A DNA stretch of 64,000 nucleotides, taken from NCBI GenBank assembly GCA_026545225.1, contig CM048846.1, forward strand, positions 82,849,270 to 82,913,269, given 5' to 3'. The notes below the pieces were generated by a model. It saw only the letters and a list, made by a program, of their open reading frames with translations. It had not been told where the DNA came from and ran no database searches. Of this stretch, positions 1 through 51,023 are shown piece by piece. Both the position numbers and the translations under genes were made by a program. Origin of the DNA: Cornus controversa. Taxonomy: Eukaryota > Streptophyta > Magnoliopsida > Cornales > Cornaceae. Each line of letters opens with the position of its first letter. Within the stretch, counting starts at the first letter, position 1.

Positions 1-405
1 TCAACTTCACATTAGTTTTTAATCAATTCTCTCAGAGTTGGACTAGTGCACAAATTGTATAGACTCAGAAGATTTACCTCTAAAGAGAAATAAATACATC
101 ACATTGGTTATCAATGTCTAGATCATAAAATCAAGTACTTCATTTGATGACAAACTAAGTGTCCCAATTATGCATTCACAAATCAAAGTGAAATTAAAAA
201 GAAATACAAAGAATTCACATTATTTCTCAGAAAAACATGATTCTCATAATCTCATATGATTATCATTAAAAATAAATAAAACCTAACCTATAATAATAGA
301 TATAGTCCAATGAAAAACAAATAAAGAACATAAGCTCAGTCCATGACCATAAAAGTCCTAATGACCTAGTTAGGGGTTTTGCACCCAAAGACCTATTAGG
401 AATAA
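1..405. other. Unassigned AT-rich sequence
   Basis: I see no coding frame, RNA gene or recognisable repeat end here. It flanks the 5' end of an LTR fragment that starts at 406. It could belong to the copia element whose gag lies to the right, but no pol motif is visible on the minus strand. Confidence 0.4.
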
Positions 406-434
406 TGTAATACCCCGTAATTTTGGAGGTCTTC
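406..434 (+). mobile_element. 5' end of an LTR (copy C) split by LTR copy A
   Basis: The sequence begins TGTAATACCCCG, the same start as the long LTRs at 3638 (minus) and 29125 (plus). After 29 bases it is interrupted by a minus-strand LTR of the same family and resumes at 3639. The bases just before the insertion (TCTTC) and just after it (TCTTT) look like a 5-base target duplication with one mismatch. Confidence 0.7.
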
Positions 435-3400
435 TGAAATACCCTAAAAAAATTTCACGCATGAGGTGGCCAGTCTCATACACAAAACTTAAGGGATACT
501 AATGATAGCAAACAAGCATAGAATACAATGACAAAAGAAAAAGAATTATAAATGCTGAAAGGAAAGTCTAACTGAAATAAATAATCATGTTAAATAACAT
601 TATATTATTCTGATTGATACAACTTGGAAGTTCGGTAGCCCACGGACCCCTTAACCAAAAAAAAACATAAAAGTAAAACTTTTTGAACAGATGTAAGTCC
701 CTACACTAAAGTATGGTAAGGAATGGATGATTGTCACGCTCTACGAACTCCACGTGCAAATTTCTAGGTAAAAACTATCTAGAACCTGAAATATCAACAA
801 AGTAGGTTAAACTACGACCAAATTCTCTCTACTACAACCCAATCAGAGAACCGGTAAACATACCCTCTATATGAGGACAGTAAAGACATATAGATATAAT
901 TATACCGTTTAGTCATTAAATCTCCTATCTTAGAAGTAACTAGAACTATGTTCTAAACTAACCCATCCATTATCACAATATAGATAAAACAAATTTCTAA
1001 GTTCAAACCATAGACAATCCTAACATGCCTTCTTCCATATATTCTACAAATGCCTTACAAGGTATTAGGCAAACCTTTCCTGCCTCCACCAATAATCCTT
1101 TCCCAAGACAACAAATTTATGTTTATATACAATTAAAGATAACCCACCAGCTCATAAATATATATCCCCAATTAATCCTGTGACCCAAGAATAGAGCCGC
1201 CCCACACCCTACACTAACACATCAGTTATCTTAATGCAAGTGCAGACTAGTTTTAAGTTTACATAAGAAACAATCGTAACATGCTCGAATATATAACGAG
1301 AAACGTTCTTACTAGATATTAGACAATCCTGACATGCTCCAAATAAAATATAAAGATACCATATTAGGTGTTTGGGGATCCCGACACGCTTTGGCAATCC
1401 CAACATGCCAAATATAATGCATAGATACCTTATTAGGTATTAGGCGATCCTGACACGCCTTGGCAATCCCAACATGCCAAATATAATGCATAGATACCTT
1501 ATTAGGTATTAGGCAATCCTGACATGCCTTAGCAATCCCAACATGCCAAATAAAATGTATAGATACCTTATTAGGTATGGGCGATCCTGACACGCCGGAC
1601 AATCCTTACATGCCAAATAAAATGCATAGACCTTATTAGGTATGGGCAATCCTTACATGCCAAATAAAATGTAGAGATGCAATTCCAATATGAAACATAA
1701 AATAAACAAGGTGCTTTATGATTTTTAATTTGCACAAACAAAGTAATTCAATTTATCTGACATGAAATTTATCACCATATGACAAATCATGCACAAGTAA
1801 ACTATATATAATCAAGTATTTCATGGGCATTTATATTTTTAAAGGAAAATACATTCAAGTAAATCCAATAACACAATCATCCATTTTAAAAGCAAACATC
1901 CAATCAAACCTCCAATTTATCTAAACCTTCAAGGGAGTCAAAACCTAACTCGAATTTAAGTTCTCGGCCTATTCTGCTTCTAAGAACCCTACTTCACATT
2001 TTAAAATTTTCTGAAATTTTAAAAATATTTTCAACAAATAAAAGAAGGTGAAAATCCAACTTTTAGGCACTTTAAAAATTAATTGAACATAATGGGAAGC
2101 TCATTTCGAGATGAAAATTTAAATCCAAGTTTATTTAACCTTCAGAAAGTTACAGTAAACATTTTGGGAATTTTTGGAACTTTTTAACTATTTTTTAAAA
2201 TTAAAGAAGTTGAAAAACCCAATTTTTAGACACTTTAAAAATCAATTTAAAAACAAGGGAAAATTATTTCGACATTAAATTTAAAAACCAAGCTCCTAAA
2301 AAACCCAGAATGTTGACATAAAATTTTGGAAATTTTTTGAATTATACAAGTATTTTTAAAAAATAATTTTTCAAAATTTTAAGTTTTTCTAAAAATTTCA
2401 AAAATTCAAAACAAATATCAAAATAATTCGGAATGGGCCCATATCGGACCCAGAGGTGGGCCCCCGCGAGTCGGTGCGGGCAGCACGCTCTCCCACGCAC
2501 TGGAGCGATGTCCCCTTTCTTTTTTTTTTTCTTATTCCCTTACCTGAAGCTACCACGATTCAACAATGGTGGCCGAACTTCCCGATCACTTTCCGATCAC
2601 TTTCGGGCATCGAATCGCACATATGAATATACCATTTAACTCGTATCGATCTAAGCTACGCATTGGTACCAAAATCACCCCCTCTCGCGGCCTAAATCAA
2701 AAACGCCAAATTTCAAGTTTCGAAAATCTAAAATTTCAAACTCAATTTCCCGTTAACCTACCCAATGGTTCACCACCAAATTTTCAAGGATTGTTCTAGG
2801 AAGTAAGATCTACCTTTTAATCGGAACAAAAATGTTTAAAAATAATGAATACAGTAAACCCAATTTTATATTAATATATATATATATATATTCGCCTATA
2901 CAGTCATATATACATGTATAAACATATGCAAAAATACCCTAAAACAGTACCAAAACTCCAAAATCTTCATGTTTAATTCACAGAAATATTCTTAGCATGC
3001 AAAATCATTTAATTTCATAATTAATTGCATACAAATTTCTAGCAACATGTCTATACAATTAATATATATATTATACATATATTCCAGCAACATGTATATA
3101 CAAATAATATATATGTATACAGATTCAAAGGGGAAGAGAAGAGTTCGAACTTGCCTTGTGATGTTGAGCAAAAATCACTTTTTTTTTCTCTTTTCCTGGC
3201 GTCTACCGTTTTCTCCCTATCTGTGCGTAGAAATTACTGAACCCTAATTTCTTTTCTCTTATTTAATATTCTTAAATAATTAAACTAATAAATATAAAAT
3301 ATTTAGCCCAACTATATGTAAATATATATATATATATACACATATATATAGCCCAGCCCAGCATTCTAACCCAACCTAATAATAATAATAATAATAAAAC

Positions 3401-3638
3401 AAAAATAAAGAAAATGCAGCCCAAACCAACATATTTTTATTTAACAGAAAAAATTATATTTAAAACAAATATTTAACACACAATTAAACTCAATCACCAC
3501 TTAACAACAATTCAAACATCCACATTAAACATATAAAAACAGGCATTGACAAAATTAATTAAAGCATTTAAATAATTAAAAACTCTATCAAATAAATAAA
3601 AATCCAATTTAGATATCCTCAAATTACGGGGTATTACA
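435..3638 (-). mobile_element. Solo LTR of a long-LTR retrotransposon, copy A (3.2 kb)
   Basis: Read on the minus strand it starts TGTAATACCCCG at 3638 and ends GGGTATTTCA at 435. It matches copy B (29125-32635) through its length in order: a GGGTTGGGTT-type leader, a GGCAAGTT...TTCTCTTCCCC segment, a GC-rich GGGCCC block, AT-rich tandem units of about 165 bases and a minisatellite. No primer-binding site or polypurine tract flanks it, so it is a solo LTR rather than one end of a full element. Possible target duplication TCTTC/TCTTT. At 3.2 kb it is an unusually long LTR. Clade not determined, since no coding region remains. Confidence 0.75.
1310..1680 (-). repeat. Minisatellite inside LTR copy A, unit about 69 bp
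   Basis: About four and a half head-to-tail units, each holding AATCCTGACATGCC, CCAACATGCCAAA and ATAGATACCTTATTAGGTAT. The same array occurs inverted in LTR copy B at 31496-31785, so it belongs to the LTR family. A 96-residue open frame across it is only the translated repeat. Confidence 0.85.
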
Positions 3639-3993
3639 TCTTTTAATTTTAATTTAAATGCTTTATTTCTTTTATTAGTTAAATTGAATTACTTATGGGT
3701 TGGATTAAATTCTTTAAGTGCTTTAAATATTGTGGTGTAGTTTACTTTATTTTTATTTTATTTCATTTTATTTTATTTGAACTGGATCTTTGTGTTTTTC
3801 TTTATTTTAATTTTGGATTGGGTTAGGGAGGAATCTGGGTTGAGTTGGGCTGGAATGGTTGGGCCAAGCGTATTTATTTTTGATGAGCTAGGGTTTGTTT
3901 TATTAATTTTTTCTTTTAATTTTATTTAGTCTTAATTAGTTTTTTGAAGAAAAAAATAATAATAAAAGAAAAGAAGAGGGGATTAAAACAAAA
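3639..3993 (+). mobile_element. Continuation of LTR copy C, truncated
   Basis: This resumes the plus-strand LTR that starts at 406. It shares TTAAATGCTTTA and GGGTTGGGTTAGGGAGGAA with copies A and B, the latter corresponding to about 29330. Homology stops near 3993 at ATTAAAACAAAAA, where minus-strand copia gag sequence begins, so copy C is cut off after roughly 380 of about 3,300 bases. Confidence 0.65.
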
Positions 3994-4296
3994 ACATTCT
4001 CTTTCTTGTTTGAAGTCTTTTTAGCTTGAGAATTTTTGGGTTTGTTCCAATAATGTGGCTTTTTAGCATGAACCCTATTCTTAGCAAAAGAATTATGCAT
4101 ATAAAAATCAGAATTAGAATGTCTTCTCTTTTTATAGCAATAGTGTTGACTATGTTTATTCTTACCACAAAAGAACAATAAAACACATTTGACACAACAT
4201 TAGCATGCAAAGACTCAATTTGAGACTTAGGTTTGGGTTCAAACACATTCAAGTTCTTGGGTTTAACAAAAACAGTTTTTTCCTTAGATGATAACC
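3994..4296 (-). pseudogene. Ty1/copia gag, distal part with zinc knuckle
   Basis: Minus-strand translation gives a basic, Lys/Pro/Asn-rich stretch and a Cys-x2-Cys-x4-His-x4-Cys knuckle (CGKNKHSQHYC core) at about 4128-4165. It is the continuation of the gag frame at 13452-15625: with the CACTA insertion and one CAA copy left out, the frame stays open across the junction. The copia sequence ends at about 3994 against LTR copy C. Protease, integrase and reverse transcriptase of this copy are not seen. Confidence 0.75.
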
Positions 4297-4319
4297 CAAC
4301 ACTACAAGAAATTTGTTGT

Positions 4320-4925
4320 TTTGCAACAAAAATATTTGTCGCTAAACATACCAAATTTGTCGCAAAAAGTTTTTAGGGACAAAAAAAATTTGTCGCGAGG
4401 TTGTCCCCTAAAGCCCGTCACAAAAGATTTTATGCCACAAAAAATTTTTGTCGCAAAAAATGCCATATTTTGCCACAAAAATACATTTGTTGCTAAAGAT
4501 GTCACAATTAGCGACCAATTATTTGTCACTATTTCTCTAAAAATTTGTCGCTTGTCACAACCTAATCCCGTGGGCTTTTGTCGCTAAATATATAGCTATT
4601 TGCGACAAAATCAGATTTGTCACTAAAGATAGATAATTTGCAACAAATTTTATTTTGTCGCTAAATGCTAAACAATTTGCGACAAAATTAGGTTTGTAAC
4701 TAAATCTAAAACATTGGGCAACAAAATAGACTGTCTCTAAAAAAATAAAATAATTTGCAACAAAACTAAATTTGTTGCTAAATAGTAAACTATTCGTAAC
4801 AAAATAAATTGTCCCCAAAAATAAAACAATTTGCAACAAAATATGTATTGTCCCTAAAAACAAAACAATTTGAAACAAAACTAGTTGTTACAAATATAGT
4901 TATTTAGGAACAAATGTTGTTTGTC
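4320..4925. repeat. Left subterminal repeat region of the CACTA element
   Basis: Dense array of short motifs around TTTGTCGC, TTTGTCCC, TTTGTTGC and their complements GCGACAAA and GCAACAAA in both orientations, spaced roughly 20-45 bases. The pattern matches the mirror region at the other end of the transposon. Open frames here are repeat translations. Confidence 0.85.
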
Positions 4926-7900
4926 ACCAATAATTTTTAGAGAAAATTGCTTTTTGTAAAAATAAATTAAATTTTTTTTATTTCTGACAATTTTTTTCTT
5001 GTCATGTGTATCAAAGATTCCAAACAAACTTAAAATTTTACAAATTCTATAAAGCATCAATCACAAATTATCCAAACTAATATTTTACAAATTAAAAATA
5101 AAATATTCTATCATATAAATCCAAAGGTCCGTACATATTCCAAATAAAGGATCAAAAATAGATTCATACACAGAGAATGATTTAATTATATACAACAATA
5201 GTAAGATAGGAGATCCATAAATCTAATCCCATGTAAAACAAAAAGTACAAAAGTGAGTTTAACCTAGATCCATATATAAAATAACAAAAAAAAGATAGTC
5301 AATGAGACTACAACAAAAAGGAGATCCAAAAAGCTAATCCCGACCACATGCAACCTGCAAAAAAAGGAGAGAAAAAATCTGATTAGTTCAGTTGCATATA
5401 AACATATTATTTCTATAATGATAATCATCATATATATATATACGACACTACCTTCTATTTTTCTGTTTTGAACTCTCACTATTATGAAAAGGAGTTTCAA
5501 TAGTTCAAAAGATAAAGCTAAAACAATCCAACTATTATAACACATATAAATGGAGTTAGAGGATTGACACAAGAAGAATAGTAAAGAAACTTAATCAAAT
5601 ATAGCTAAAGTGATAAACAATCTAAGATATTGCAGCTATCTTATTTCTACTTACACGATATCATTCAATTAATTTTAATTAATTTTACTCTCCTGATAAA
5701 GAAAAAAATATGTACACCAGGATTAAATTCCCCCAATCAATCCATATCTTCCAGGAGATCAAAAATTAAGAGGGCAATATCATTCCAAAGTGAACCATTA
5801 GTCACCTGAACACGATTGCTCTTTCAGGAGCACATATATGGTCGCCATTAGTCACCTAACAAATTTTATGCATCAAATAATAGTAGCATCAGAACTAAAT
5901 ATTGTTATCTTTCTATTGGTGTGAATTACATGCTCAGGAACCAAATAAATAGATTTTCATATATCTATCCTCACATCAAAAGTTAGCATTCCTATTCAAC
6001 TTAAGGGCCATATTACTTTTAATTTCAATCAAGATATAAACTCAAATCACACCATTTATTACCAAGCTTCTCCCCTTTCAAGCGAGCAGCCTCAAAAAGG
6101 TTTCTCCAGTTTTAGATTAAATCTAATAAGTATAAACTCATATGGCAACTTGCAGTACGATCAATCCGAGTTTACAAGCACAAATAGAGGTCTGTCTCCT
6201 AATCGTTCCCGACCCTAAGAGAAGGCAAAAATGTAAACCAATAATGACTTAATGAAACAATTACAAAAAAATGATTTAATAGAAGAGAGCAAAAACTGTA
6301 ACTCCAAAACAGTCTTTGTGGTAAGGTTGGCAACCTTAATTTATAGTGTATCACATTAGTAGTGACAAATGAGAGGTTGATTAACAATTTTCTTTCTTAT
6401 AATTTTTCAAAGTTGTAAATGATACGAGTCAACTAATAGGTTGCTCAATCTAACGAAAAATTAAAGACCTCCAATGAAGCTTTGGGTTGGTCTTTTATTT
6501 TGTTTTATTGATTATTAGTTGACTCAACCCTTAGTTCAAGTAGATTTGTTCCTCTGTAGCTGACTAAGTTATCAAATTGAAGTTGAGCTGGGCTTAATAC
6601 ATACTAAATATCAAGCACAACTCGTTATCTCATGAATAGATTAACTTATTTCTCAATCTCAAAATAGATTAATTTGTTTAATATTTTTTAACTAAGCTTT
6701 TTTGTCTTTAATCATCAGCATAGGGTAAGTTCACACAAGCTCTCCTAATAACAAGAACAGGGTTAGGTGATCTGAGTGAAAGAAAAAAAAAAAAGAAGAA
6801 AGAATCCAAAAGTCAAAAATGTTGTTTTAACTTGTATTAAGAGAATCGAATATAGGAAACCTGGAAATTAATGTGGACATGCACTAGGAGGAATTAGGTG
6901 GGGGATTGTTGGAGTGTTTTGCTTATAAGTGGAGTTAAAAATAGTGATGGTTGAAGACTTAAAAGCTTACTGGGATTTTGAATCCTCTGGTGGAAGCCAT
7001 GGTTCTGTAGTCAGCAAAGGCTACTGAGTGCTGACTGAATATATATATATATAGTGGGCTGATTTTGGATGTAGCAAATTTTTCCAGGTTGAACAAGGTT
7101 GTTACACTTACAAATTCCTAATCATATTGATTTGATAAGGAAATTTATAATCATGAAATATTTTCTTCCATATCACAAAAAAGTTTTAATAACTATATTT
7201 CACTCCGTCATCGACTGACACGATCTATTGTGGTCAATGATGACGTTGGGAGGAAAGGTCGGGAAATGGAAGAGATGAGTGATTAGTCATTTATTTTTGA
7301 AATTACATGAATAGCCATTTTTTTTTATGAGTTGACAAATTTTAATAAAATTTTTATTTCCAACAAAATGTAGGGGCAAAGCTTAACTCCTCTTTAAAAA
7401 GGAGTGGTTAGCTTTCCCCAATCTTAATATATGTAGTATTATTTCCATTTACAAAATTTATGTATGATTAATCTAAATGAGTCCAAAATCTTCTATGAGT
7501 ATTTCCAGATACTACTAGAATACAATTTTTGGGGACTTAAACTCTCGTATATAAGAGCAAAACAGAATCAGGATGGGGGCAAGGACATCCGTCACAGTCC
7601 TTATATGGGGTAGGAGGGCTAGAATGGGGACTTTTTAAATTTTTTATTTTTATAGTAATAATCGACGTTCTTACTCTATTTTAGAGTAAAACTACTCCTT
7701 TTATGATTGGTGACCTTTGATAGGTTTCAAATTAAAGGTCAGGTCTAAAGAATGGGTAAATGTCATGCGTGATATATATACAAGGACGCTAGCCCTAACA
7801 AAGGCAAAAATAAGAGCATCCCAACTGCTCCTCCACAATTTTGCTATGTTTTGTCTCTTCTGTAAAAATAATAGAGTGGTTAGATCGATGTTTAGTAACA

Positions 7901-9100
7901 TTGTCAATACAGATATATAAATTAAATTAATATATACATACATAAGATGATAAAGTCACCAAATTTATGAATGAAAAGATTTTACTTTCCCATTATTGGT
8001 GTAATCACTAGAATAATATATTTGTTATAGCATGATCAACAAATGTGCGATTAAAAATCTTTACTTCTATCCTATATTTCTCGTTTCATATTCAACTTTG
8101 TTCTAAACCTCCATTATATATATTGTTTTAATATTTTACGTGCCTTCCCAATCAAAACAAGCAAAATTACTACTCACAAATCTATTAATTTGTTCAAAAA
8201 AGAAAACATAAACAAAAAGAAGAGAAAAAAGAGAGAATAAACAAATTAGAACTCTTAATTGCAAAAGCCTACTTGGCTGCAAAACCTGTATATAGCTCAC
8301 AAGAATGTTTCTACACCTAGTAGGCATTTCAACAAATTGTAAAAGCTCGAACACATCAACGGTCTGACTGCCCCCTCCCATAAGAAGGTCACAAGAATTC
8401 ATGTTTGTAATATTAGTGAGTTTTTAGTAGAGACAGAGAAAATCATATGTGCATACTAACATGTTCTCTTAAAGGGACTATTGGGTACTATTCATAAGAA
8501 ATAAACTTCTTATCTCTAACATCATGCCATAATTGTATAATTTGTACTTCCATTAGAGCCCTCTCAAACTTCAAATCATGTTATCTATACATAAAATTCA
8601 CTTTCTTTTACATATACATTATGCCTAGCTTTATATATAAAAACTTCATTTTTTACCTTCATACATGCTGCATACATTAACATTCAATTTGCTTAAACTC
8701 ATTGTAACATGTTACAAAAAAAAAAAATGTGAATGAAAGCATCATTCCTTGTAGTTTCAAAATATCTTGATTTGCTTCTTGTCTTACCAAAATTCTGTTA
8801 GCTAGACTTGTTTTAAGAGAGCATGGAAATTCAAAAACAATAAGCTAGTGGACATATAATCAGAGAGTTGTTACTATAATAACTACAAAATCCATAATTT
8901 ACGTATAATCAAATTAAATTTAGGAATCAAAGAGAGCTTATAATCAATGTAAACATATGCAATGAAGAAGTAGAATTGTAAATTTAAATCAACTAGAATA
9001 GTAAAACACAATCGCTGATATGCATAGAAAGCAAATAATAATGTATTTATTTGTGTTTATAATAGTATATTACTGATAAAAACAAATAATAATTGAAACA
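4926..9100. other. Interior of the CACTA element, no recognised gene
   Basis: AT-rich sequence without a coding frame I can assign. An 88-codon minus-strand frame at 8136-8402 starts cleanly, but I recognise no family. There are short TA runs near 7040 and 8640. No transposase motif was seen on either strand. Confidence 0.5.
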
Positions 9101-9103
9101 TAC

Positions 9104-9204
9104 ATAGAAAGTAGTGACAATTCTTGTAGAGTTACCCTCCATGAGCTTTATCTGATTGGTGACTTTCACAAACATATACTTGCTTTTGGACGAAAACCCA
9201 GCCC
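9104..9204 (-). pseudogene. Captured exon 2 of a xyloglucan endotransglucosylase/hydrolase (XTH) gene
   Basis: Minus-strand sequence preceded by a good acceptor (TTTCAG at 9210-9205) and followed by a donor (TAT|GTATGT). It encodes AGFSSKSKYMFVKVTNQIKL and then MEGNSTRIVTTFY, matching the GH16 XTH segment with SKxKYxFGKVxxQIKLxxGxSAGTVTAFY. The exon limits (2+99 bases, leaving phase 0) agree with what I recall of XTH gene structure. Substitutions at normally conserved positions (FVK for FGK, STRIV for SAGTV) suggest decay. Exons 1 and 3, including the catalytic DExDxE segment, are not visible, so only a fragment was copied into the transposon. It cannot make an active enzyme. Confidence 0.65.
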
Positions 9205-9903
9205 CTGAAATTGCATAAATGAAATATAAATTATATTAGATATAAGAACAAATTTTTTAAGTATGAAAAAATAACAAAGAAGGTTAACAACTTCAAGTAA
9301 CAGAGAAGAGAACAGAGCAAGAGCATCAAGAACTACAAATAAAAAGTTTAGCTGAAAAATAAGTTCATGAAAACTAAAATAACATCAACTAACCTTTATA
9401 TATAACTACTTGGTGAATCATTGTCATTTGTTATCTAATTGCTGGGACTGAAATGGGAAATAAAAGGTTCCAAATTGTGGTTTTTTTCCCCTTATTTTCT
9501 TAGCAATTACTGGTGAGATAAGGATCCACTTAATTACAGATCATGTTAATGGTAGGCCCATGAACTGTGGTTACAGTGGATGTGTGGAGAAGAGAAGCCA
9601 CTACTTTCATGGTCGGCTTGGGAACTCTCAATTACAAAACAAAAACATATATTGCTTCCTCTTTTACACAACCAAAACATTAATACTGGAAAGTTCCAAG
9701 TGCATGGTTAGGCAAAATGAAATGTCAGTTTAATTGGGTCAATGTATCAAAGATAAATGAAAAAAAAAATCTAATTGAAACAGAAATTATCAAATGAATC
9801 AAGATAGACTTAAGCAGTAATATGCGACATCTCATGATAACAACACCAGCAACTCATCCATTACAATTTTTTCCATTTGAAGTAGCTCTAAAACAGAGGA
9901 TAC

Positions 9904-10076
9904 CTGATAGCAGGTAAGCTTCGGATTGAGAGTTCTGTCTGATGAGGCCCACAAAATTGGGGGAGTGGAGTGTGAGAGATGAGAGTGACGTCGGCAGGAA
10001 AGAGTTTAGGCCTTCGATGGAATGAAAATCTGATGAGAGAGATGAAGGGTACAGTGATGAGGGTTAGGGCTTCCAT
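9904..10076 (-). other. Possible captured or chimeric first exon in the CACTA element
   Basis: A minus-strand ATG at 10076 opens a 57-codon stretch (MEALTLITVPFISL start, rich in Leu, Ser, Arg, Phe, Pro) ending at a consensus donor CAG|GTATCC at 9904. It would splice to the acceptor before the XTH-like exon, but it leaves phase 2 whereas that exon needs phase 1, so XTH residues would not be read. Composition resembles an organelle-targeting leader; that is inference. I recognise no family. An open frame continues upstream to 10136. Confidence 0.3.
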
Positions 10077-10558
10077 CTGAAAAGGAAATCGGTGATGGAA
10101 TACTTTTCGATATGATAATGTTTGAGAACCACTCAAAATAGGAAATTGTGGTTTGTGTAGCAGACATTTTAGGGCTAAGATCGTTTCACTGTGGTTTGAG
10201 AAGCAGACATTTTAGGGCTAAAATTTTCAATCTTCAGAGAATGAGTTTGAGAGAGATTTTGAGAGAATGGATTTGAGAGCGGGATTTTGAGAGGGTAGCT
10301 TATTTTTTGACAATGGGTTTGTAAGGCTCAACCATTTAGGGATGGCATAGTAAATCACTTCACACAGTTTGAGACTTGAGAGTAGCGCCATTGTTCGAAA
10401 TATGGTGAAATTTTAGGCGGTAAAGACATGAGCCAAAATAAAATAGTTTGTGACAAATATTTTTATAATAAATATTTAAATAAAGTTATTAAATTTTTTT
10501 AAAAAAAATTAATAAATTAATTAATTTTAAATTACTTGAAATTTTATATAAGAAATGT

Positions 10559-10560
<2 letters not shown>

Positions 10561-10597
<37 letters not shown>
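10561..10597. repeat. (AT)n microsatellite
   Basis: Uninterrupted alternating TA of about 35 bases followed by a T run, inside the CACTA element. Confidence 0.9.
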
Positions 10598-10599
<2 letters not shown>

Positions 10600-11814
10600 T
10601 TTTGTATTAAGGTTATCAGATCTTAGTATAAATATCTAATAATTAAAAATTTTAATTCATTTTAAAATAATATCATAAATTCTTATAGTTCGACTATAAA
10701 ATTGATGATTTATGTTTATTACAATTATCTCATAAATTTTAATTTCATCATTACTTTCGGTCTACTTGTTATGTTTATATCTTATGCATTTTAACCTTAT
10801 TCGATAAGTTTGAGTTATCGGATGCAAAAAAATGTTGGTAAGTAGCTTAAAACAACTATCATACATAACTCTAAGTTTGTTTATAAAATTGTTTCTACAA
10901 AACATATAAGGACAACGCTTAAAACCTATCTAAGGGAAAAAAATTTAGTGCATGTAATATTAGTCAATATAGTAACCCTTTAATAAATAATAAATTGTAA
11001 AAATCATTTCACATTGAAATAATTTGCTTTGAAATGATTATAAGAAATTTATGTTAGGTATTAAATTATTTAACTAAGATATCATATCAAAAATCTAGAA
11101 ATTTAGAATTTGTTTTTATACTTTAGTTTCTTCGAGTTGCTCGAGTTGGAGTACATTTAGGCCAAGGGCTACTCAAAATAAATTAATGCTCTTAAATCTG
11201 AACTCAATCTCAATTTTGATATTTCAAAGTTTTGTTATTTCAAATGCTCTTAATGCGTTTTCGATTATTTGAAAAGTGCGTGGAGATTGAAGCTTACCTA
11301 CGATGATTGTAAAGCAATGGGGAGGCTATTGGGACAATGAAAGAGCTAAAGATATGTTTGGTAAGAGAATTTCAAAGACTGTTAATGCGGTTGAAATGTG
11401 ATTGAAGGTTGCAATTGGATAATAAAAAAGTACCACTTAAAATAAAAAAATCTTGGTTATGGTTCTATAATTGAAGAAGAGAATGGGTTTGATAATGAGA
11501 TTTTGACAAGAGTAATGATAGACACAGTGAAAGTTATCACCGAATTAGAAAAGTGAATCACTCTTATCCTTAGATAATGCAAGTGGGACCCACATTTTCA
11601 CAATCCAATTCATGGACACCATGTTCACTACACATTAGGTGATAACTTTTTACTCTACAAATCATTATCCTTTCAACAAATATGTAGAGTATATAATTTA
11701 TGATTATTTCACCTTCTTAATTTATACATATCTCAACATTTAACAATATAAATATACAATAAGCACTAGGCATGCATGATGATGAATTAGATTATAACAA
11801 CAAATTTAAAAGAG

Positions 11815-12376
11815 TAATTACTACGGATTCAGTGTTTTATAGCAAATACCCTAGTATTTATTACGAATTTTTTTCGTGGTAAATATGAAGGGTATTTTTC
11901 ACGGATTTTATTTTCCGTAACAAATACCTTTCTATTTACTACGAAATTGAATCCGTAGTAATAGGTATTTTATTACGGATTTAATTTTTCTTAGTAAATA
12001 CCTTACTATTTATTACGAAATTAGCTCCGTAGTAAATAACATATTATTTGCTACGACATAAATTTCGTTGAAAAAGGGTATTTACTACGAAATTAAGTTT
12101 TTGTAGTAAATAATTTAGTGTTTCCTACGCATTTAGTTTTTCGTAGTAAATAATATATTATTTGCTATGAAATAAATTTCGTCGAAAAAGGATATTTACT
12201 ACAAAATCAAGTTTCCATGGAAAATACCCTAATATTTACTACGAAATTTTTTCTGTGGTAAATACGAAGAGTATTTTCCATGGATTTTATTTTTCGTAGC
12301 AAATACCTTACTATTTACTACGAAATTGAAACCGTAGTAAATGGTCCATGGAAAAAAAACCTGTTTTCTTGTAGTG
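11815..12376. mobile_element. Nested CACTA-like repeat with one intact terminus
   Basis: Its right end reads TTTTCTTGTAGTG, that is CACTACAAGAAAA on minus, a canonical CACTA terminus. The roughly 560 bases before it consist of repeated units with TTTACTACGAAATT and TCCGTAGTAAAT in both orientations, a subterminal-repeat pattern different from that of the host element. The left end begins at about ATTACTACGGATTC without a CACTA terminus, so it is truncated or eroded. No coding sequence. Confidence 0.6.
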
Positions 12377-12769
12377 AAATTTGATATTGGTAGTAGCTTA
12401 TCTCACTAAATTGTGCAAGGCCTTGACGTCATTTTCAATAATATATATATATATATATACCATTGGTCGTTATAATTTATCATTTACAGATTTTTAGTTA
12501 ATCGAAAAAATAATATTTGTAGAGTTTGTAAAGTTTAATTATTACAATTACTTATAAATGTAGTTGTAAAGTTATTATTTACTTATCTATAGTTGACAGA
12601 CACTTATTATGCTAAAAAAATAAGAAGAATAATTTTGAAAAAAAAAATTTAATACTAAATTTATAAATTTATTAAAAAAAATAATTTTTTGTTGTCTAAG
12701 GCATTAAATCATAGTAATTAGTATAAATCAACATTCGCAATCTCAAAAAACTAGACATTAGATGACAAA

Positions 12770-13445
12770 TACAAATTTGTCCCAAAAACTAAAGAATTTG
12801 GGACAAAGAATTTTGTCCCTAAAAAGATATTTTTTTTTGCAACAAAGTATTTTGTCCCTAAAAAGAGTTTTTTTTTACAACAAAGCCTGTTTTTGTTGCA
12901 TAAAATATCACATTGGCGACAAACTCAATATTCGTCGCAAAAACTAAAGAATTTACGACAAAACATCTTTTGTCCCTAAAATGCATTATTTGCGACAAAT
13001 AGTTTTGTCCCTAAAGCTATCTTTTTACAATTACAAACCATGTTTTAGTCGCACAAAATATCATATTGGCGACAAACTGAAAATTTGTCGCAAAAACTCA
13101 AGAATTTCCGACAAAGTATTTTTGTCCCTAAAGCTATCTTTTTTGCAACAAAGTTTTCATCCCTAAAGTCTAACTTTTGCAACAAAAAAATTTTTTGTTC
13201 CTAAATACAATTTTTTTGCGACAAAATTTTGCAACAAATAATTAATTGTCGTCTAAATTGGCACATTTTGGGACGAACTTGTATTTTGTTGCAAAAAATA
13301 AAATATTGGTGACGAATTTATAAGTTTGTTGCAAAAAAAAAAAAAATTAGGCGACAAATTTATAATTTGTCGCAAATGACTACCTTTTGCCACAAATTGG
13401 GCTTTGTCCCTAAAAATTTTGTGGCAAAAAGCATAATTTGTTGTA
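12770..13445. repeat. Right subterminal repeat region of the CACTA element
   Basis: Mirror of the left region: GCGACAAA, TTTGTCGCAAAA and TTTGTCCCTAAA repeated in both orientations with longer units of about 110 bases (compare 12905-12975 with 13065-13135). Ends in the terminal TTGTAGTG. Confidence 0.85.
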
Positions 13446-13451
13446 GTGCAA

Positions 13452-14071
13452 CAAAGCCTAATCCAGTTCTATCTCCTACAGGCTTACCAACACTAATCAT
13501 GCTATCAAGCTTAATCTGCCCAGAAGTAAAATCAAGCAACTAATTTCTGTTGTGATTTTTTTAATTCAGGCTCAAAAAAATTAATTCTAGCAATAAGAGA
13601 ATCTTTGGCAGAAATAGATTGACTTACCTCGCTTTCGAGAAACTTGACTTTGCTTTGAAGGTTTTGAATGTTAGCTTTATTCTCTTCAATCAACTTCAAT
13701 TAATCTTCATTCGTTTTCTTCAAAGTTTCTTTCTCAGATTTCTTATTATAAGCTTCTAGCAATTTCTCAAAGAGTTTTGGCTTCTTGCTCTCACATGGTT
13801 ATACCTCAAATTGCTCAACTTCTGAATCATCAGACCCTACTTGGCTGGGAGTAATGTACATCTCTGTTTCACCTACATCAGAAGAAGAATCATTTGCAGT
13901 ATCATTATTCAATAAAGCAACAAAAATAAGAAAATCATTCTCAACAGAAGAATCACTATCAGAGTTAGAAGATTCAGACTTAGAAATAATAGCTTTTATG
14001 GCTTTCTTTTTAGTTTTTGAACTTTTCTGTGCACTAAAGTTATTTTTCTTAGGACTTGGACATTGATTAGA
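13452..14071 (-). pseudogene. Ty1/copia gag, middle part
   Basis: Minus-strand gag sequence between the TRIM (TSD 14072-14076) and the CACTA element. It encodes the last Cys of a zinc knuckle, a Lys/Ser-rich linker, a stretch of acidic Ser/Asp residues and then a Lys/Glu heptad-like region. In-frame stops occur, one just after EVEQFEV near 13799. The arrangement UBN2-type domain, knuckle, acidic linker, coiled coil, second knuckle resembles SIRE/Maximus-type gag; that clade call is inference. Confidence 0.7.
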
Positions 14072-14076
14072 TGTAT

Positions 14077-14648
14077 TGTAGTAACCCTTGTGGACGGGTG
14101 TGAGTGGGCGGGTGCGAAGACAGACACTAGGCTGAGCTACCACACTGACAGGGTACAGGGTGCTCAATCCCACATCGCCTGGGTGTGAAAAAGGGGATGT
14201 GCTTATATGTAGTATGTTCTCTTCAAATGGTATGAGGCCTTTTGGGGTAAACCCAAGAGCAAAACCGTGCAGGCTCAGGCCCAAAGCGGACAATATCATA
14301 CCATGTGTTGGAGCGGGGTATTACAGTTGGTATCAGAGCCTGAACCCAGCCGGAAGTAAGTGTGCCGACGAGGGCGTCGGGCCTCGTAGGGGGGTGGATT
14401 GTAGTAACCCTTGTGGACGGGTGTGAGTGGGCGGGTGCGAAGACAGACACTGGGCTGAGCTACCACACTGACAGGGTACAGGGTGCTCAATCCCACATCG
14501 CCTGAGTGTGAAAAAGGGGATGTGCTTATATGTAGTATGTTCTCTTCAAATGGTATGAGGCCTTTTGGGGTAAACCCAAGAGCAAAACTGTGCGGGCTCA
14601 GGCCCAAAGCGGATAATATCATACCGTGTGTTGGAGCGGGGTATTACA
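14077..14648 (+). mobile_element. Complete TRIM (terminal-repeat retrotransposon in miniature), 572 bp
   Basis: Two 249-base direct LTRs (14077-14325 and 14400-14648), both TGTAGTAACCC...GGGGTATTACA, differ at only about half a dozen sites. The 74-base interior has a tRNA-Met primer site TGGTATCAGAGC right after LTR1 and a polypurine tract AGGGGGGTGGAT right before LTR2. A perfect 5-base duplication TGTAT (14072-14076, 14649-14653) brackets the element. It carries no genes, so replication must depend on proteins of other retrotransposons. It interrupts the zinc knuckle of the copia gag and is younger than that element. The low LTR divergence points to a fairly recent insertion. Confidence 0.93.
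14328..14339 (+). promoter_or_regulatory. tRNA-Met primer-binding site of the TRIM
   Basis: TGGTATCAGAGC, complementary to the 3' end of plant initiator tRNA-Met, two bases after LTR1. Confidence 0.9.
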
Positions 14649-14653
14649 TGTAT

Positions 14654-15625
14654 GACCTTTACCACCATATGTCCAACAAGTAAGCTCAGTCTCCCTCGAG
14701 TCATCTTCTTTCTCTTTCCTTTCCTTACCTTTGGATGATGAGCTTTGATTCTGGAATTTCAAAGGATTTCCTTTCTCAAATTTCTACCTTTCTCATATTC
14801 AAGAATATTTCTAAATTTCCTAGCAAGGAGTGCAACATCATTATCTGAATCATATTCAAAACTTTCAATTTTTTCAATTTCAAATTTTGAAGAATTTGAA
14901 ATATTTGACAAACTTGAAGACTTGGAAGTCTTTGAGGTTTTTAAAGCCAAATTTTTTGTTTTCTGAAGCTTTGGATATTTCATCTCAAAAGTTTGAATTG
15001 ATCCAACTAACTCGACCATCTCCATTGAATCTACATCTCTACTCTCATCTAAGGCTTCCAACTTAGCTTGGAACCTATCAGGCAATGATCTCATAATTTT
15101 TCTGATAATCTGAAAAGATGGAGTTTTCTCACCAAGATTAGCACTACTTTGAACAATATCGTTAACCCTAGAATAAAAATCAGAAAACATCTCATCTTCA
15201 TCTATTCTAATTGTTTCAAATTTAGTGGCAAGCATTTGTTACTTAGATCTCCTTACCTTGGTGGTACCTTCATGAGTTACCTATAAAATATTCCATGCTT
15301 CTTTCGAAGTGGAACAAGCAGAGAGTCTAACAAATTCAGAAAGAACAACATAATTAAATATAGCATATAAACCCTTATTTTTATTATTAACATCTTCATG
15401 CTCAGCATTAGAACATGTTGCTTTATCCTTCTCTACAGACACAGCAGCATCACCATCACCAGTGTTAGTGATTGGAATTTTATAGCCATTCTCTACAGCC
15501 ATCCAAACTCTCTTTTCTTGAGATTTCAAAAAGGCTTTCATGCGAGACTTACAGAAAGTATAATTTGAATCATCAAATAAAGGAGTTCGTTGAATTGATC
15601 CACCCTCTTTTATACTAGATTCCAT
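14654..15625 (-). pseudogene. Ty1/copia gag, N-terminal part
   Basis: The minus-strand ATG at 15625 opens a 114-codon frame (SIQRTPLFDDSNYTFCKSRM...) with the DUF4219-type start of copia gag. A TAG after EAWNIL and a TAA about 15 codons later break the frame, which resumes at 15235 with a UBN2-type gag domain (VNDIVQSSANLGE..., IIRKIMRSLPDRFQAKLEAL). Near 14660-14690 lies a first zinc knuckle with its second Cys changed to Tyr (CWTYGGKGH), cut by the TRIM just before its last Cys. Start chosen because it lies 90 bases below the primer site at about 15702. Non-functional. Confidence 0.82.
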
Positions 15626-15701
15626 ACTAATTTTTCAAAGCAAAATAAATCTTGATTTTAAAAATACTTTGAAAGGAACTACTCACAAATTAGAGAACAC
15701 T

Positions 15702-15713
15702 GCTCTAATACCA
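15702..15713 (-). promoter_or_regulatory. Primer-binding site of the minus-strand copia element
   Basis: On minus TGGTATTAGAGC follows the LTR end ...CTCACA, a tRNA-Met type site with one change. It fixes the orientation and the inner edge of the LTR. Confidence 0.8.
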
Positions 15714-15715
15714 AT

Positions 15716-16923
15716 TGTGAGTTGCGCAGTGCGAACGCGGTTGCGAAAAGTACTTTTAAAACCTAGAGGGGGGTGAATAGGATCACTTGCTCGTTTGCTT
15801 AATTTTTAATAAACTCAATTTTAAGTCCAATTAACCAAACAATTAAAGCAAGTAAATAAGTTAAAGTGCAAGTAAAGTAAATAATGCACCGGATATACAT
15901 GGAAACCCAAGGCGGGAAAAACCACAAAGGGAGGCAGAATGCCTCAGGAAACCAATCCACTATAATGAAGCAAAGTATATCAGACTCTATCTCAGACTCA
16001 TACCCCTCTTCACTTTGTCAAGAATATGATGCAGAACACCTTATTCTTATGATTGCGATAACACGTCCAACTGCTGCAGACTTCTGGCTAACGTCACGAT
16101 CCTTACAAAAAGGTTGCTGGAAGAACAAAAATACTCAACAAGTATTTTGTTTCCTTCGTAGTGCGATATGGTCACCTTTCTTCCTCAGCAAGAAAGCAAG
16201 CGAAAAACCATCAATCTAATGTTCTGATTAGCGAATGATTTGATACAGTCTTTGTGCAGCTAATCAGAAGTAGAACACTATCCTAAATATCATTCGTGAA
16301 AAATAGATATGTGTTCTTAAAAATATATAACCCTAATTATACTGTATATACTTTCTCTCTTTAAAAATATTTATTTTTCAGGCTTTTTTTCTTCACCACT
16401 TTTTAGAGAAAATATAGATACATATATATAGGCAAGGGAGTCCTAATTCTACTTGGAAAAGAAGTTGTATACCAAAATAAAACTCTCCTAGAAGTTTCAA
16501 ACCCAATAGGAATCAGAATTTTCCTCAAAATTTGTTTCCTATTTGGAACAGGATAAGTGGGACCGGTGCCAAATAAATAGGACTGGTGGGACTTTGTAAA
16601 ATCCTGCAAAAATCAAACTACTGAGAAAAGTTGGAGCGGTCCTAAATATTAGAGACCGGTCCTAGTTTAAAAAATCCTAAATTTTTTATTTAAACCCTAA
16701 TTTTTCAAAATAGGCTTAGAAATAAAAAGTGCAGAGTGTCCTCACCATACTTACCTGTACTATATGGTGTTATTACTGATTTATCTACTTCCATATACTT
16801 GAATATCAGCTCGAAGTTGTCGAAGATCGATTACATAAAATAATACGAAAATTACAACTCAATCAATCAAGTTTTGATCACCGAAATATGCCAATTACAA
16901 TTATATATCTCACACTTCTCTCA
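15716..16923 (-). mobile_element. 5' LTR of a Ty1/copia element, copy 1 (about 1.2 kb)
   Basis: Bounded TG...CA on both strands (TGTGAGTTGCGC at 15716, CTCTCA at 16923), directly upstream of the primer site and of gag. Related LTR sequence recurs at 18080-19210, 25934-26145 and 57112-58440, sharing GTGAGTTGCGCAGTGCG, ACCTAGAGGGGGGTGAAT and GGATATACATGGAAACCC. The outer boundary is inferred from the CA end and comparison with copy 2; the partner LTR is outside the window or lost, so no target duplication can be checked. Confidence 0.75.
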
Positions 16924-17443
16924 TGGAATCCTTTCTAATTGCCCATTTGCTACGATTTTGATTAAAATTATGCATTAGTACATGGAGAAGTATTACAAAT
17001 GAATTATTATATGCAATTACAAGGGCATGGATGTGGACCATTCGACACTTATCAACAACATATAGTCTTAAAATATAAAAATTATAATTTTTTCTTATAT
17101 TTTGAGCTTCTCGGATTAGAAACCTTTGCTCAAATCCTGCTGAAAATAAATTTGGGCTCTAAAGTTTGTTCTCAGTTCTAGTCCGATGGTTTCAAATACC
17201 TTGCCCACGATTGTGAATATTTTGAACTAAACTTCTTTATTTATGATAGTATAAATAATCTAATTTAACTTTGTTTTATGTAAACAACATATAGTCTTAC
17301 AAATATTAAAATTATAAATTTTTCTTATATTTTAGCGGGTTTCTCGGGTTAGTAAAACTTTTGTCCAAATCCTATAGCAAAAATAAATTTGGACTCTAAA
17401 GTTTAATCTTAGTTTGCCCATGCTTGTAAAGATTTTGAACTGA
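16924..17443. repeat. Non-coding sequence with a direct repeat of about 230 bp
   Basis: Segments 17045-17235 and 17283-17445 are direct repeats sharing CAACATATAGTCTTA, TTTTTCTTATATTTT, AAATCCT and AATAAATTTGG. No coding frame beyond chance length. Confidence 0.65.
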
Positions 17444-17918
17444 TGCTTCGTTTGGTAGGGAAGAATGAAAGGAAAGAAAAAAATTCCTTCATTTATTAGA
17501 GAAGAAACAAGGAAAGAAGAGAAAAAAGGATGAATGAGTCATCTCTCATCTTTTACAAACTTTCATCCCTCCAAATATGGATGGGAAAACAGGAAGGAAG
17601 GAAGAAAGACAAGACTATTAAATAAGTTTTGAATTATGAAACTATCCTTATTTATTTGAGCATAATAAATGTTCAAAAGAGTACTATAAATAGTGATAGG
17701 TATAATGGTAAAAAAAATTATAACTCTTTCTTCTCTTCTCTCCCAACAAACAAAATAAGATTATCTTATTCTCTAGGAATGTCTCATCCATTCTTATCTC
17801 TTCCATCCCACCAAACAAAAAGAGAAAATAATACAATCTCTTCTCTAGAAATGTCTCATATATCCCTTCTTTTTCTACCTTTCATCTAATTTTTTTTCTT
17901 TCCTACTAAAAGGAGCAT
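17444..17918. mobile_element. MITE with imperfect inverted ends (475 bp)
   Basis: Left end TGCTTCGTTTGGTAGG and right end, read inwards, TGCTCCTTTTAGTAGG agree at 13 of 16 positions. Flanking triplets TGA/TAA hint at a PIF/Harbinger or Tourist-type 3-base duplication but are not identical. Interior is AG- and CT-rich and non-coding. Confidence 0.55.
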
Positions 17919-18079
17919 AAAACTTTTACTCCAACTATTTCTCTTTTCTACATCTATTGTTTAGTATTCTACTAAAATTCTTCTCACTTGTTATTGTTTT
18001 CTCTTATTCTGTTATACACTTTTTATTAGGTTAATTAATTACTAAAAACTATTATTTTAATTTTTCCTAATTAAAAATA

Positions 18080-19210
18080 AACCAATCACAAAAAACAAGT
18101 AAATGAGGTACGAGATGACATCGGATATACGTGAAAACCCAGAATGAAAGAAAACCATGGGTGAGGCTGTAGTCTCGGAGAAACAAATTCACTATCTCGA
18201 AGTAAAGTATAACAGATTGACTATGTCTCAGTCTTACACCCACTCCACTCTGCCAAGAATTAGGTGTTAAACACCTTAGGCTTACTCTTGCGACTCCACG
18301 TCCAATTGTTTTAGACTTTATATTAACTTCACATTCCTTGTAAATTTTGTCTCCTTCGTAGTGCAATTGATTCCTCCTTCCTCACAAACAAATTGTTGAA
18401 AAGAAACAACAAATCTAATGTGCTAATTGAACAAAATAATCTATAGTAGCTTCAATACAACGATCAAATTAAGAACACCATCCTAATATCACTCGGTGAA
18501 TATGTGTGTTCTCAAAAGAAAAACAAACAGAAAAAACAAGGATAATTTTCCTACCCTAAAAATACTTTCAAAAGCTCTCTCTTTAAAAATAATATATTCT
18601 AAAAGCACAATTGAAGAGAAAAGATAGAGTAATATTTATAGATGAGAGAGTTATAATATTACTTGGAAAAGTAGTTTTAAAACAATTTAGTACACTTCTC
18701 AAAGTTTCATGTAAAAAGAAAATCAAAATAATTCGTGTGGAAACACTTTTCTTTTGGAAATAGACCAAGTGCGACTGGTGCTTAATTTTTCTGTCTGGTT
18801 GAACTTCTTGCAGGTCTCAACTATCGAGAGTTGGATTGATCGTCAAAAAGTGCGACCAATCTGACTGTTTGGGAAACGAAAAATCAACATTCTATTACAC
18901 TAGTTTTTCCAAACTTGTCCAACCAACCTTGGGAAAATAAATTAAAAATAGGGAAATCCGTGTCAACCCACTTGGAAAACTAAATTAAAAATCTCTTAGC
19001 TGTTTTTTAAAATTAAACTACAGTGAATTGTGTTTTCATATACTTATCTGTTTGAAATGATGTTCTCATTGAATTATAAGTATCAATGCACTTATTTTTT
19101 AGCTCGTGGGATTGAGACCCAAATTAAATAAAATAAAACTATAACTTGATCAATTCCATTTTGGTATTGAAATTTGTCAATTACAAATAAAACATCTCAT
19201 AGTAACTCAT
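18080..19210 (-). mobile_element. Fragment of copia LTR, copy 2
   Basis: Collinear with copy 1 from its internal GGATATACGTGAAAACCC motif to its outer end (ATTGAAATTTGTCAATTAC...CTCATAG). The part next to the primer site is missing, so this is a truncated solo LTR or half LTR. Small open frames inside are chance. Confidence 0.65.
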
Positions 19211-20144
19211 TTAATACTATAAGTTTTCTAAATCGAACACAATATATAATATCAAATAAGACAATTCTTGCAACATTATACAAGCCGAGGTGGACTCAGA
19301 GAGGCTAAAAGTCTAGGCAAACTTGAGAGAGAGACAGAAAGAAAGAAGATGGCAGTATACAAGTAAACCATTGCCTCCTTGGTAAAGGGTGAGAAAGTGT
19401 GGAGAGATCATGAGTATGAGATGGGTGTGAGAGAGCATGGGAGCTCTCTTTTTTGTTCACTTGGAATCCTCCTGAGATCTCATTTTATTGGCCTTGGATC
19501 ATATCCTTTTATAAGCCAAGTGGGAAAGAGGGTGATGTCATCTATGACATTACATGTGAGTTTTTTAACATAATAATTAAAAGAGATAAATTTCTTAAAT
19601 AATTGTAAAGCAATGTTAATTAAAATGGAAATAAATTGTACACGAGTCAAAATGGTATTTCTTCCTTTACAAGTGAGGTCGATGATTAACTCGACGGACC
19701 TTGAACTTCAGCCACCAGCCAAGTAACTCCTCGGATCCCGAGTATCCCGAGTCCGGCTCCCAACTCAACTTTTTAGGTCTTCAATTCAATGACATGGTAT
19801 GCGTCATGTAACTTACGTGTTAACCGTTCCACAAAGCTAAGTAGGCCATTGTCATGTGGCATTTAAATTCGTTGTTCATAAACCTCATCTACCTAACGTT
19901 GGGTCCCAAATAGAGCTGGATAAGAGGATGCGGGTCAATGGTTTAAAAAATCAAAACTTAGTTGTTGTATAATCAGCAACTTGCCCATGAAATAAGATAC
20001 TCACAAATCGTGTCAAGTACAGAGAATTTAGCATGATATGAGGAAAAATATGTATTTGTCCCATCTGACAGGTAGGCAGGTAGGTAGGTAGCTTCTGCTT
20101 TTTGTAGTCACTCTTTTCTTTGGATCACAGAAAGAGATAGAGAG
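19211..20144 (+). other. Region upstream of the DC1 gene
   Basis: Non-coding. Contains the presumed promoter and 5' leader of the gene that starts at 20145; the bases before its ATG (AGAGAGATAGAGAG) also precede the related start at 50609. A CAGGTAGGCAGGTAGGTAGGTAG microsatellite-like run lies at about 20070-20090. I cannot place a TATA box with confidence. Confidence 0.5.
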
Positions 20145-29124: not shown

Positions 29125-30589
29125 TGTAATACCCCGAAAAAAATTTAGGTGTCAATTTAATCTCTTTACATTATTACTTTATTTTATTAATTCATGTTAA
29201 ATGTTTTTTTTATATAAATTATCATTGTAGGTGAGTTGCTTGTCTTTTATACATACATATTGTCATTTTATGTAAATTGGTATCAATTGTGTGTTATTTT
29301 ATTTAAATGTTTTGGGTTGGGTTAGGGAGGAATTTGGGCTACGATGAGTGGGCTAAGGTTATGTTTAAAATGATGGGCCTAGGGTTGTAATAATATTTTT
29401 ATTGCTATTGTTAGTATTATTAATTTGATTTTTAATTAGTTTGGGGAAAATAAATAAAAGAATAATTAAAACAAAAAGGAAAAGAAAAGAAGAAGAAATT
29501 AGGGCTTGCCGTTGTTTTACGCACAAAATTAAAAGAGAGTAAACGAAAGAGAGAAGGGAGTGACGATCGGGTGAACAAGTTGATTCGTCAGGAAAAAGGC
29601 AAGTTTGATTCTTCTCTTCCCCTTTGAATCCGTATGCATAGTCTAGGTTTGAGGATTGTGTTTATTTTGGAAATTTGTATATAATTGTATGTTGTTTTCT
29701 CTGTTGATAAATTTTGTGAGAATTAATTATGCTAATTGTATAAACATGTTGCTAGAAATTTGTATGCATTTATTTATGAAATTAAATGATTTTGCATGCT
29801 AGGAATAATTCTGTGAATTAAACATTAGGATTTTAGAGTTTTGGTACTATTTTAGGGTATTTTTGCATATGTATATACATGCATATATGATTGTATAGGC
29901 GGGTGTATATATATACGAACATGAAATTTGGGTTTACTGTGTTTATCATTTTTGAGGGATTTTGTTCCGATCAATAGGTAGATCTTACTTCCTAGAACAA
30001 CCCTTGAAAATTTGGTTGTAAACCGTTGGGTAGATTGATGGGAATCTGACTTTGAAATTTTAGATTTCGAAACTTGAAATTGGGCGTTTTTGATTTAGGC
30101 CATGAGAGGGCGTGAATTTGGTACCAATGCGTAGATTAGATCGAGACGAGTTCAATGGTATATTCATACGCGCGATTCGGTATCCGGAAGTGACCGGAAA
30201 ATGGTCGGAAAGTTCGGCCACCATTGTTGAGCTTAAAGCTTCAGCCGTGGGAAGAAGAAAGAAGAAGGAAGAAAGAAAAAAAAAATGTGGGGGCAAGGTC
30301 GCCGGCGCGTGGGGGCGCGTGCCGCCGGCTCCGGGGCCGGCCGGTGGCCGGAAAATTATTTTCGGGCCCCACTCTCGGGGGCCCACCTCTGGGTCTAATA
30401 TGGGCCCATTCCGAATTGTTTTGATATTTATTTTGTATTTTTGAAATTTTTGGGAAAACTTGAAAATCTGGAAAAATCATTTTTTTAAAATACTTTTATA
30501 ATTCTAAAAATTCCCAAAATTTTATGTAAACTTCCTGGGAGCTTAAGGGGCTTGGTGTTTAAATTTCATATCAAAATTATTTACCATTA

Positions 30590-31010
30590 TCTTTAAATTA
30601 ATTTTTAAAGTGTCTAAAAACTGAATTTTTCAGCCTCTTTAATTTTAGAAAATAGTTAGAAATTTCCAAAAATTCCGAAATTTTTACTGTAGCTCTCTGG
30701 AGGCTAAATACACTTGGGTTTAAAGTTTCAACTCAAAGTGATCATTTCTTGTTGTTCAATTGATTTTTAAAGTGTCCAAAAGTTGGGTTTTTCACTTTCT
30801 GTAATTTTAGAAAATACTTTTATAATTCCAAAAATTCCCAAATTTTTACTGTAATTCTCTGGAGGATAAATACACTTGGGTTTAAATTTTCAACTCAAAA
30901 TAATTTTTCCTTGTTGTTCAATTTATTTTTAAAGTGTCTAAAAGTTGGATTTTCACCTTCTTTTATTTTTAGAAAATATTTTAAAATTCTAGAAAAATTT
31001 AGGTAACTTT
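30590..31010 (+). repeat. Tandem units of about 165 bp inside LTR copy B
   Basis: About two and a half diverged units, each with TTTTTAAAGTGTC(T/C)AAAA, TTTAGAAAATA and, where complete, CTGGAGG(C/A)TAAATACACTTGGGTTTAAA. Copy A holds related units inverted at about 2040-2400. Confidence 0.75.
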
Positions 31011-51011: not shown

Positions 51012-51023
51012 CTCTATAAATAG
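51012..51023 (+). promoter_or_regulatory. Probable LTR promoter TATA box
   Basis: CTCTATAAATAG inside LTR1 of the small LTR element; the equivalent in LTR2 is ACTCTATATATA near 51981. Fits a polymerase II TATA box; start site not established. Confidence 0.6.

Follow-up and report, generated by a model that had tools for sequence, protein, structure and literature searches.

What has interrupted the gag coding sequence of a copia-type retrotransposon in the stretch of Cornus controversa DNA shown above, and what could have moved it there? This 64,000-nucleotide stretch, referred to throughout as the window, corresponds to C2:82849270-82913269 in the 771.7-Mb genome assembly that we searched. 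The interrupting unit is a CACTA (En/Spm-type) element. The sequences show the complete unit with its two termini, gag copies in which the insertion site is unoccupied, the same unit inserted at one other place, and a relative in which both ends occur together with a transposase frame. Taken together, these observations make it very probable that the element is non-autonomous, that it has kept both terminal segments of a transposase-encoding family (~1.4 kb on the left and ~1.1 kb on the right), and that its interior consists of other DNA, derived in part from a host gene.

Ends, empty sites and the damaged host gag

Every structural feature of the CACTA superfamily that we tested was found in the element. 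Both ends carry CACTACAA, and the left terminal inverted repeat CACTACAAGAAATT agrees with the reversed right terminus CACTACAACAAATT at 13 of 14 bases. Directly outside the element, CAA stands on both sides as a perfect 3-bp duplication, the length described for CACTA insertions in PMC2613891 and PMC8978399 (here and below, published comparisons refer to excerpts of the papers cited). Arrays of short repeats in both orientations lie at both ends. Their motif, TTTGTCGC, occurs 16 times in the window, compared with 0.94 expected in shuffled sequence, and all 16 occurrences fall within the two ends of the element (9 at 4335-4686 and 7 at 12916-13373). When folded as DNA, the stretch 4300-4900 gave a z score of -6.85, with 0 of 20 shuffles equally stable, as expected from repeats that stand in both orientations. 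A genome pattern search for CACTACAAGAAA with TTTGTCGC within 10 bases returned 0 matches, because the spacing in this element is wider. A sequence-only reading of the window had described the termini, the CAA duplication and the subterminal repeats, all of which hold. It had placed the element at 4297 to 13451; both ends are real, but that interval takes in the two CAA copies, and the element proper runs from 4300 to 13448.

The same reading had proposed a search for the empty gag site. A genome search with the right gag flank returned at least 42 rows (from the best 40 of 1379 candidates), counting the window and two secondary pieces. For 20 of the other 39 listed gag relatives, we fetched the DNA around the insertion point. 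The left and right flanks adjoined in all 20, which are thus empty sites, and the triplet at the junction was CAA in 17, CAT in two (L031 and L039) and TAA in one (L023). Two relatives were less complete: in L037 the left match ends 8 bases before the insertion point, and in L039 the match to the left flank is limited to 49 bases. These empty sites are paralogous gag copies in the same genome rather than the same locus in another plant. Gag copies discontinuous at the insertion point, which the sequence-only reading had named as evidence against an insertion, were not seen among the 20. No further copy of the gag flanks or of the element ends was found in 274 kb fetched around the element.

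The host was correctly identified as a copia gag. The profile Retrotran_gag_2 (PF14223) matched at 14762-15238 with an E value of 2.8e-7, over the cut-off, and at 15284-15634 with an E value of 1.8e-4, under it. The frame is open across the junction, as had been claimed, but this continuity is local, as the gag frame changes near 13540 and a stop lies at ~13.8 kb. Homology to the relatives stops at ~3986 in 18 of the 20 compared, at base 16 or 17 of the query made from the left flank; to the left of this point, the retrotransposon is either truncated or broken up by other DNA. The gag is further split by a 577-bp element at 14072-14648 with two 254-bp direct repeats (97% identical). Between them lies TGGTATCAGAGC, which we take to be a primer-site-like motif, the 577-bp element presumably being TRIM-like, that is, of a miniature long terminal repeat (LTR) type. 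A relative of it (89-94%) lies ~6-7 kb left of the window (L001). Next to the start of the gag, 15600-16167 is 73% alike to 56994-57576 in the same orientation, and the two are possibly LTRs of two related copia elements. The observation of a CACTA element in gag is therefore confirmed and its interpretation as an insertion into a copia-type gag is supported, but the extent of the damage to the gag had not been seen.

Features of the element and its host, in window coordinates
Feature	Position	Strand	Remarks
Non-autonomous CACTA (En/Spm-type) element	4300..13448		9149 bp; ends, target site duplication, empty sites, second insertion with same ends
Target site duplication CAA, left copy	4297..4299		single triplet in 20/20 gag relatives
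Target site duplication CAA, right copy	13449..13451		
Left terminal inverted repeat CACTACAAGAAATT	4300..4313	+	pairs with right end at 13/14 bases
Right terminal inverted repeat CACTACAACAAATT	13435..13448	-	pairs with left end at 13/14 bases
Left subterminal repeat array	4325..4942		TTTGTCGC and variants, both orientations
Right subterminal repeat array	12764..13398		same TTTGTCGC motif
Left segment common to elements with Transposase_21	4300..5718	+	their end downstream of the transposase
Right segment common to the transposase-bearing C2 partner	12377..13448		82.5% over 12377-13421; terminus also seen
Second CACTA-type end	11808..12376	-	TACTACG array, terminus CACTACAAGAAAACAGG at 12376; in both C4 copies
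Patchwork piece 1	6698..7209	+	C3:72798792-72799332, 82%
Patchwork piece 2	7218..7701	+	C3:72802978-72803463, 85%
Patchwork piece 3	7701..8129	-	C3:72808197-72808630, inverted, 91%
Putatively captured xyloglucan endotransglycosylase-like (GH16) exon	9104..9204	-	AG acceptor and GT donor in place
Copia gag upstream of insertion	13452..14071	-	gag relatives, frame across junction
Copia gag downstream of insertion	3986..4299	-	homology with relatives ends ~3986
Copia gag, N-terminal part	14762..15634	-	PF14223 in two open frames

A second insertion and a relative with a transposase

To find other copies of the element, we searched the genome with its interior (5000-10440, a 5441-base query), which gave 50 rows with the best 40 of 123 candidates scored. 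Besides the window, two of the matches listed span the whole query at 98%, C4:8387498-8392972 and C4:8106215-8111695. Both copies (L054/L055 at 8.39 Mb and L056/L057 at 8.11 Mb) have outer ends exactly as in the window, with TTT on each side, and copies with different ends, the other finding that would have spoken against the sequence-only reading, were not seen at these two sites, which were checked at both ends. The two C4 copies are 281 kb apart with outer flanks that are alike (100% over 154 bases and 99.5% over 403 bases), and they look like one insertion that was copied afterwards along with the DNA around it. In either case, the unit has inserted twice, once at the window site and once on C4. 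At a third site, C8:21005159, the left end, which is the part compared, starts at the same base as the window element (92%). With a substitution rate of 7e-9 per site and year, the 2% difference between copies would roughly correspond to an age on the order of a million years.

These copies bear on whether the interval is one element at all. Instead of a single mobile unit, it could be a composite in which nested insertions happen by chance to pair into a 9.15-kb interval. The left and right outer ends would then come from two separate CACTA elements, one of which terminates at 12376. The interior does hold a second CACTA-type end with another repeat family, and a matching triplet alone is weak evidence, being shared by chance in 3 of the 41 CACTAC/GTAGTG pairs of the window. 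The decisive observations are therefore the empty sites and the same two ends elsewhere with a different duplication, TTT. We rejected the composite because both C4 copies hold the inner array within exactly the same two outer ends, flanked by the duplicated TTT. The adjoining gag flanks of all 20 relatives and the motif common to both outer arrays also stand against it, leaving it exceedingly improbable.

The sequence-only reading had found no transposase inside the element, which is borne out for the 25 longest of the 53 stop-to-stop frames of at least 40 amino acids in 4960-12760: none of these matched a transposase in Pfam. The Transposase_21 domain is abundant elsewhere in the genome (at least 150 rows, all above the cut-off, these being the best 150 of 492 candidates), and none of these best 150 falls in the element. 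The unit thus holds the cis-acting parts, and mobilising proteins were not found in it among the 25 frames scanned.

Relatives with a transposase were recognized through the terminal segments. Among the matches listed for the interior query, 13 rows cover most of 5000-5718 and end there (query 604-719), with shorter rows covering parts. For five of the 13 (one on C2, one on C3, one on C5 and two on C8), a Transposase_21 row is listed 5.8-8.7 kb upstream in the same relative orientation. Three of these five were compared (L058 on C2, L059 on C3 and L060 on C8); all begin exactly with CACTACAAGAAATTTGTTG and are 86-88% identical to the left end in the window. The Transposase_21 matches of the C3 and C8 copies contain a stop, and that of the C2 copy is without one. 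Further upstream of the C2 copy, the DNA matches the right end of the window element (12377-13421) at 82.5%, and the terminus comes after it. This partner element on C2 (C2:10709266-10729004, 19739 bp) has AGA on both sides and both ends as in the window element. Within an open frame of 797 amino acids, it matches Transposase_21 at profile positions 1-213 without an internal stop. The search for autonomous elements with these termini, which had also been proposed, therefore found one relative with both ends and a Transposase_21 frame, and this partner is a plausible source of the missing transposase.

The partner also has a similar inner end, CACTACAAAAAAATAG, in the same orientation and 1.4 kb further in. 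The inner end is an old resident of the family, and is probably the remnant of a nested element; no 5' mate of it was found within the window element. A different sample had suggested that a partner was absent. In 5 kb of upstream DNA fetched at 12 transposase sites (of the 150 listed) there was no TTTGTCGC array, and one single motif occurred (L053). We rejected this suggestion because the end of the C2 partner lies ~9 kb upstream of the domain, so that 5-kb stretches are too short to show it. At four of the 12 sites (L046, L049, L051 and L053), CACTACAAGAAA or CACTACAACAAA is present and is followed by different sequence.

Transposition of En/Spm-type elements involves a transposase that works at the CACTA termini and a TNPA-type protein that binds the subterminal repeats, both of which may act in trans (PMC2613891). 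The likeliest mechanism here would be that a relative, for instance the C2 partner, supplied the proteins for movement. A transposase and a repeat-binding partner protein from an autonomous relative would work on the two 14-bp termini together with the TTTGTCGC arrays; the unit would be excised and then reinserted with a 3-bp duplication, in this case of CAA in a copia gag copy; and cargo may have been gained by copying host DNA in faulty repair inside the element.

Several observations weigh against this account. The C4 copies count as one insertion because they share flanks, so that two insertions, rather than three, have been checked at both ends. Moreover, their left ends are identical over 697 bases, and their right parts agree at 97.3% over 2607, and less within the array, which is ~140 bases shorter in one copy. 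The right parts have thus diverged more than the flanks and left ends, which a simple recent duplication does not explain. Between the window element and the partner, the ends show no more than 82-88% identity, and the proteins of the partner may therefore not have moved the window unit. The other 8 of the 13 left-segment rows are near no listed Transposase_21 row (best 150 of 492). Finally, no transposition was observed.

Probable host DNA inside the element

The terminal sequence in common with transposase-bearing elements (~1.4 kb and ~1.1 kb) would also be expected of a decayed autonomous element, the interior of which would derive mainly from the element's own transposase gene and not from foreign DNA. 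The Pfam scan covered 25 of the 53 interior frames, which leaves some room for such a remnant. Against this stand the lack of a transposase in the 25 longest frames, the lack of any of the best 150 Transposase_21 candidates in the element, and the match of interior parts to a GH16 exon and to a stretch of C3. We consider a decayed autonomous element very unlikely and a non-autonomous element with acquired cargo the better explanation. The sequence-only reading, although right about the element, had noticed neither the captured DNA nor the inner CACTA-type end.

The GH16 exon gave the best Pfam match of the 25 interior frames (PF00722, E value 0.0017), although its 18.3 bits are below the 22-bit cut-off. 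In a PDB search, the exon matched xyloglucan endotransglycosylase 1umz (E value 0.00092). We kept the match, which is backed by both the PDB result and the exon borders. Five other sub-cut-off Pfam matches in interior frames were set aside as chance: SDF (0.024), DUF996 (0.075), Cys_rich_KTR (0.009), LIF-R_Ig-like (0.015) and DUF7672 (0.062). NCBIfam searches of seven frames gave nothing of use, and there was no match in PDB for two other frames, in Rfam for window positions 1-20000, or in plasmid records.

A genome search for GH16 exons gave 97 rows, two of which were compared; the window fragment was not among the rows at E values up to 0.001. At both places, the part of the profile matched here (30-65) has an exon of its own. 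One of the two, C2:79905187-79905300, is followed by the next two exons; for the other, C2:91473689-91473802, no further exon is listed nearby. The window fragment has the same exon borders as both, with AG before and GT after. Because these borders are kept, we infer that intron-containing DNA was picked up rather than an mRNA copy. Only 16 of 34 and 15 of 33 residues agree with the two C2 exons, respectively, so neither is a recent parent. The host coding DNA that characterizes Pack-CACTA elements is thus represented by a GH16/XTH-like exon, the Pfam score of which is below the curated cut-off.

A second part of the interior is a patchwork of three pieces, each of which corresponds to a different part of a single ~10-kb region on C3 (C3:72798792-72808630). 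Four relatives of the element (three on C1 and one on C7) stop matching at 6716-6722, near the start of the first piece, among the matches listed. On sequence grounds, the simplest reading is that the patchwork was copied from one place by faulty repair. More specifically, and tentatively, 6698-8129 could have been left by one faulty gap repair within the CACTA element, during which the three C3 pieces were copied successively and the last was reversed. The unequal identities of the pieces (82, 85 and 91%) argue against one single capture event and count against this reading. If true, a single gap repair would provide an unusually readable record of how CACTA elements pick up host DNA.

The cargo might instead consist of other transposons nested in the element, with the C3 matches being pieces of dispersed repeats. 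The window is crowded with nested repeats, ~11506-11604 recurs elsewhere, and the unequal divergence of the three pieces is not what one single capture predicts. Two observations nonetheless make nested transposons unlikely. Among the 50 rows of the interior search (best 40 of 123 candidates), the only counterparts of 7064-8144 are the window itself, both C4 copies and C3, the copies on C8 and C10 being without it; and the borders of the GH16 exon are those of two GH16 exons of the genome.

Comparison with known elements and other features of the window

By its cargo, the element is Pack-CACTA-like. Pack-CACTA elements of Arabidopsis and other species (PMC8903248) are also non-autonomous, with CACTACAA ends, a short duplication, host coding DNA and autonomous relatives with like ends in the genome. 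The element here differs in that its coding cargo is one short diverged exon beside other DNA, and neither of the two GH16 exons compared with it is a recent parent. The element also has a 3-nt duplication, in contrast to the 5-nt duplications of the rice and maize CACTA sets (PMC8903248). The soybean elements Tgm/Tgmt* (PMC2613891) are similar in their CACTA ends (13 bp in the soybean family), 3-bp duplication and palindromic subterminal repeats, in having more than one subterminal repeat family in one species, and in the size of a potentially autonomous element (20.5 kb, compared with the 19.7-kb partner here). Their subterminal motif differs from the TTTGTCGC found here, however, and Tgmt* encodes its own proteins (PMC2613891). 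CACTA elements of Chenopodium likewise have captured gene fragments and a 3-bp duplication, but the cases in the excerpts carry their own transposase-associated domains (PMC8978399). The radish element RsMYB1-CACTA (PMC7210773) has the terminal repeat CACTACAAGAAAA, which is near-identical to the left end here, and the first 13 bases of which are identical to the inner end here. That element is located within a promoter, to the methylation of which it has been linked (PMC7210773), whereas the one described here lies in a broken retrotransposon gag.

The class of element is ordinary, as gene-fragment capture by CACTA elements and nested insertions have already been published, and the present case is well documented rather than surprising. 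Its value lies in its completeness: one genome provides unoccupied gag sites, another insertion of the unit, a partner that combines the same two ends with a transposase frame, and cargo that can be read in part. The family could therefore be used to study how such elements capture cargo and whether diverged ends are still recognized in trans.

Two further features of the window lie outside the element and its host. Large inverted copies (75-82%) at 1308-3061 and 29733-31785 contain 67-69-bp tandem arrays, with further copies left of the window. A 522-amino-acid stop-to-stop frame at 20088-21656 is rich in cysteine and histidine and, we presume, resembles DC1-domain proteins; related stretches occur at ~50572-54324.

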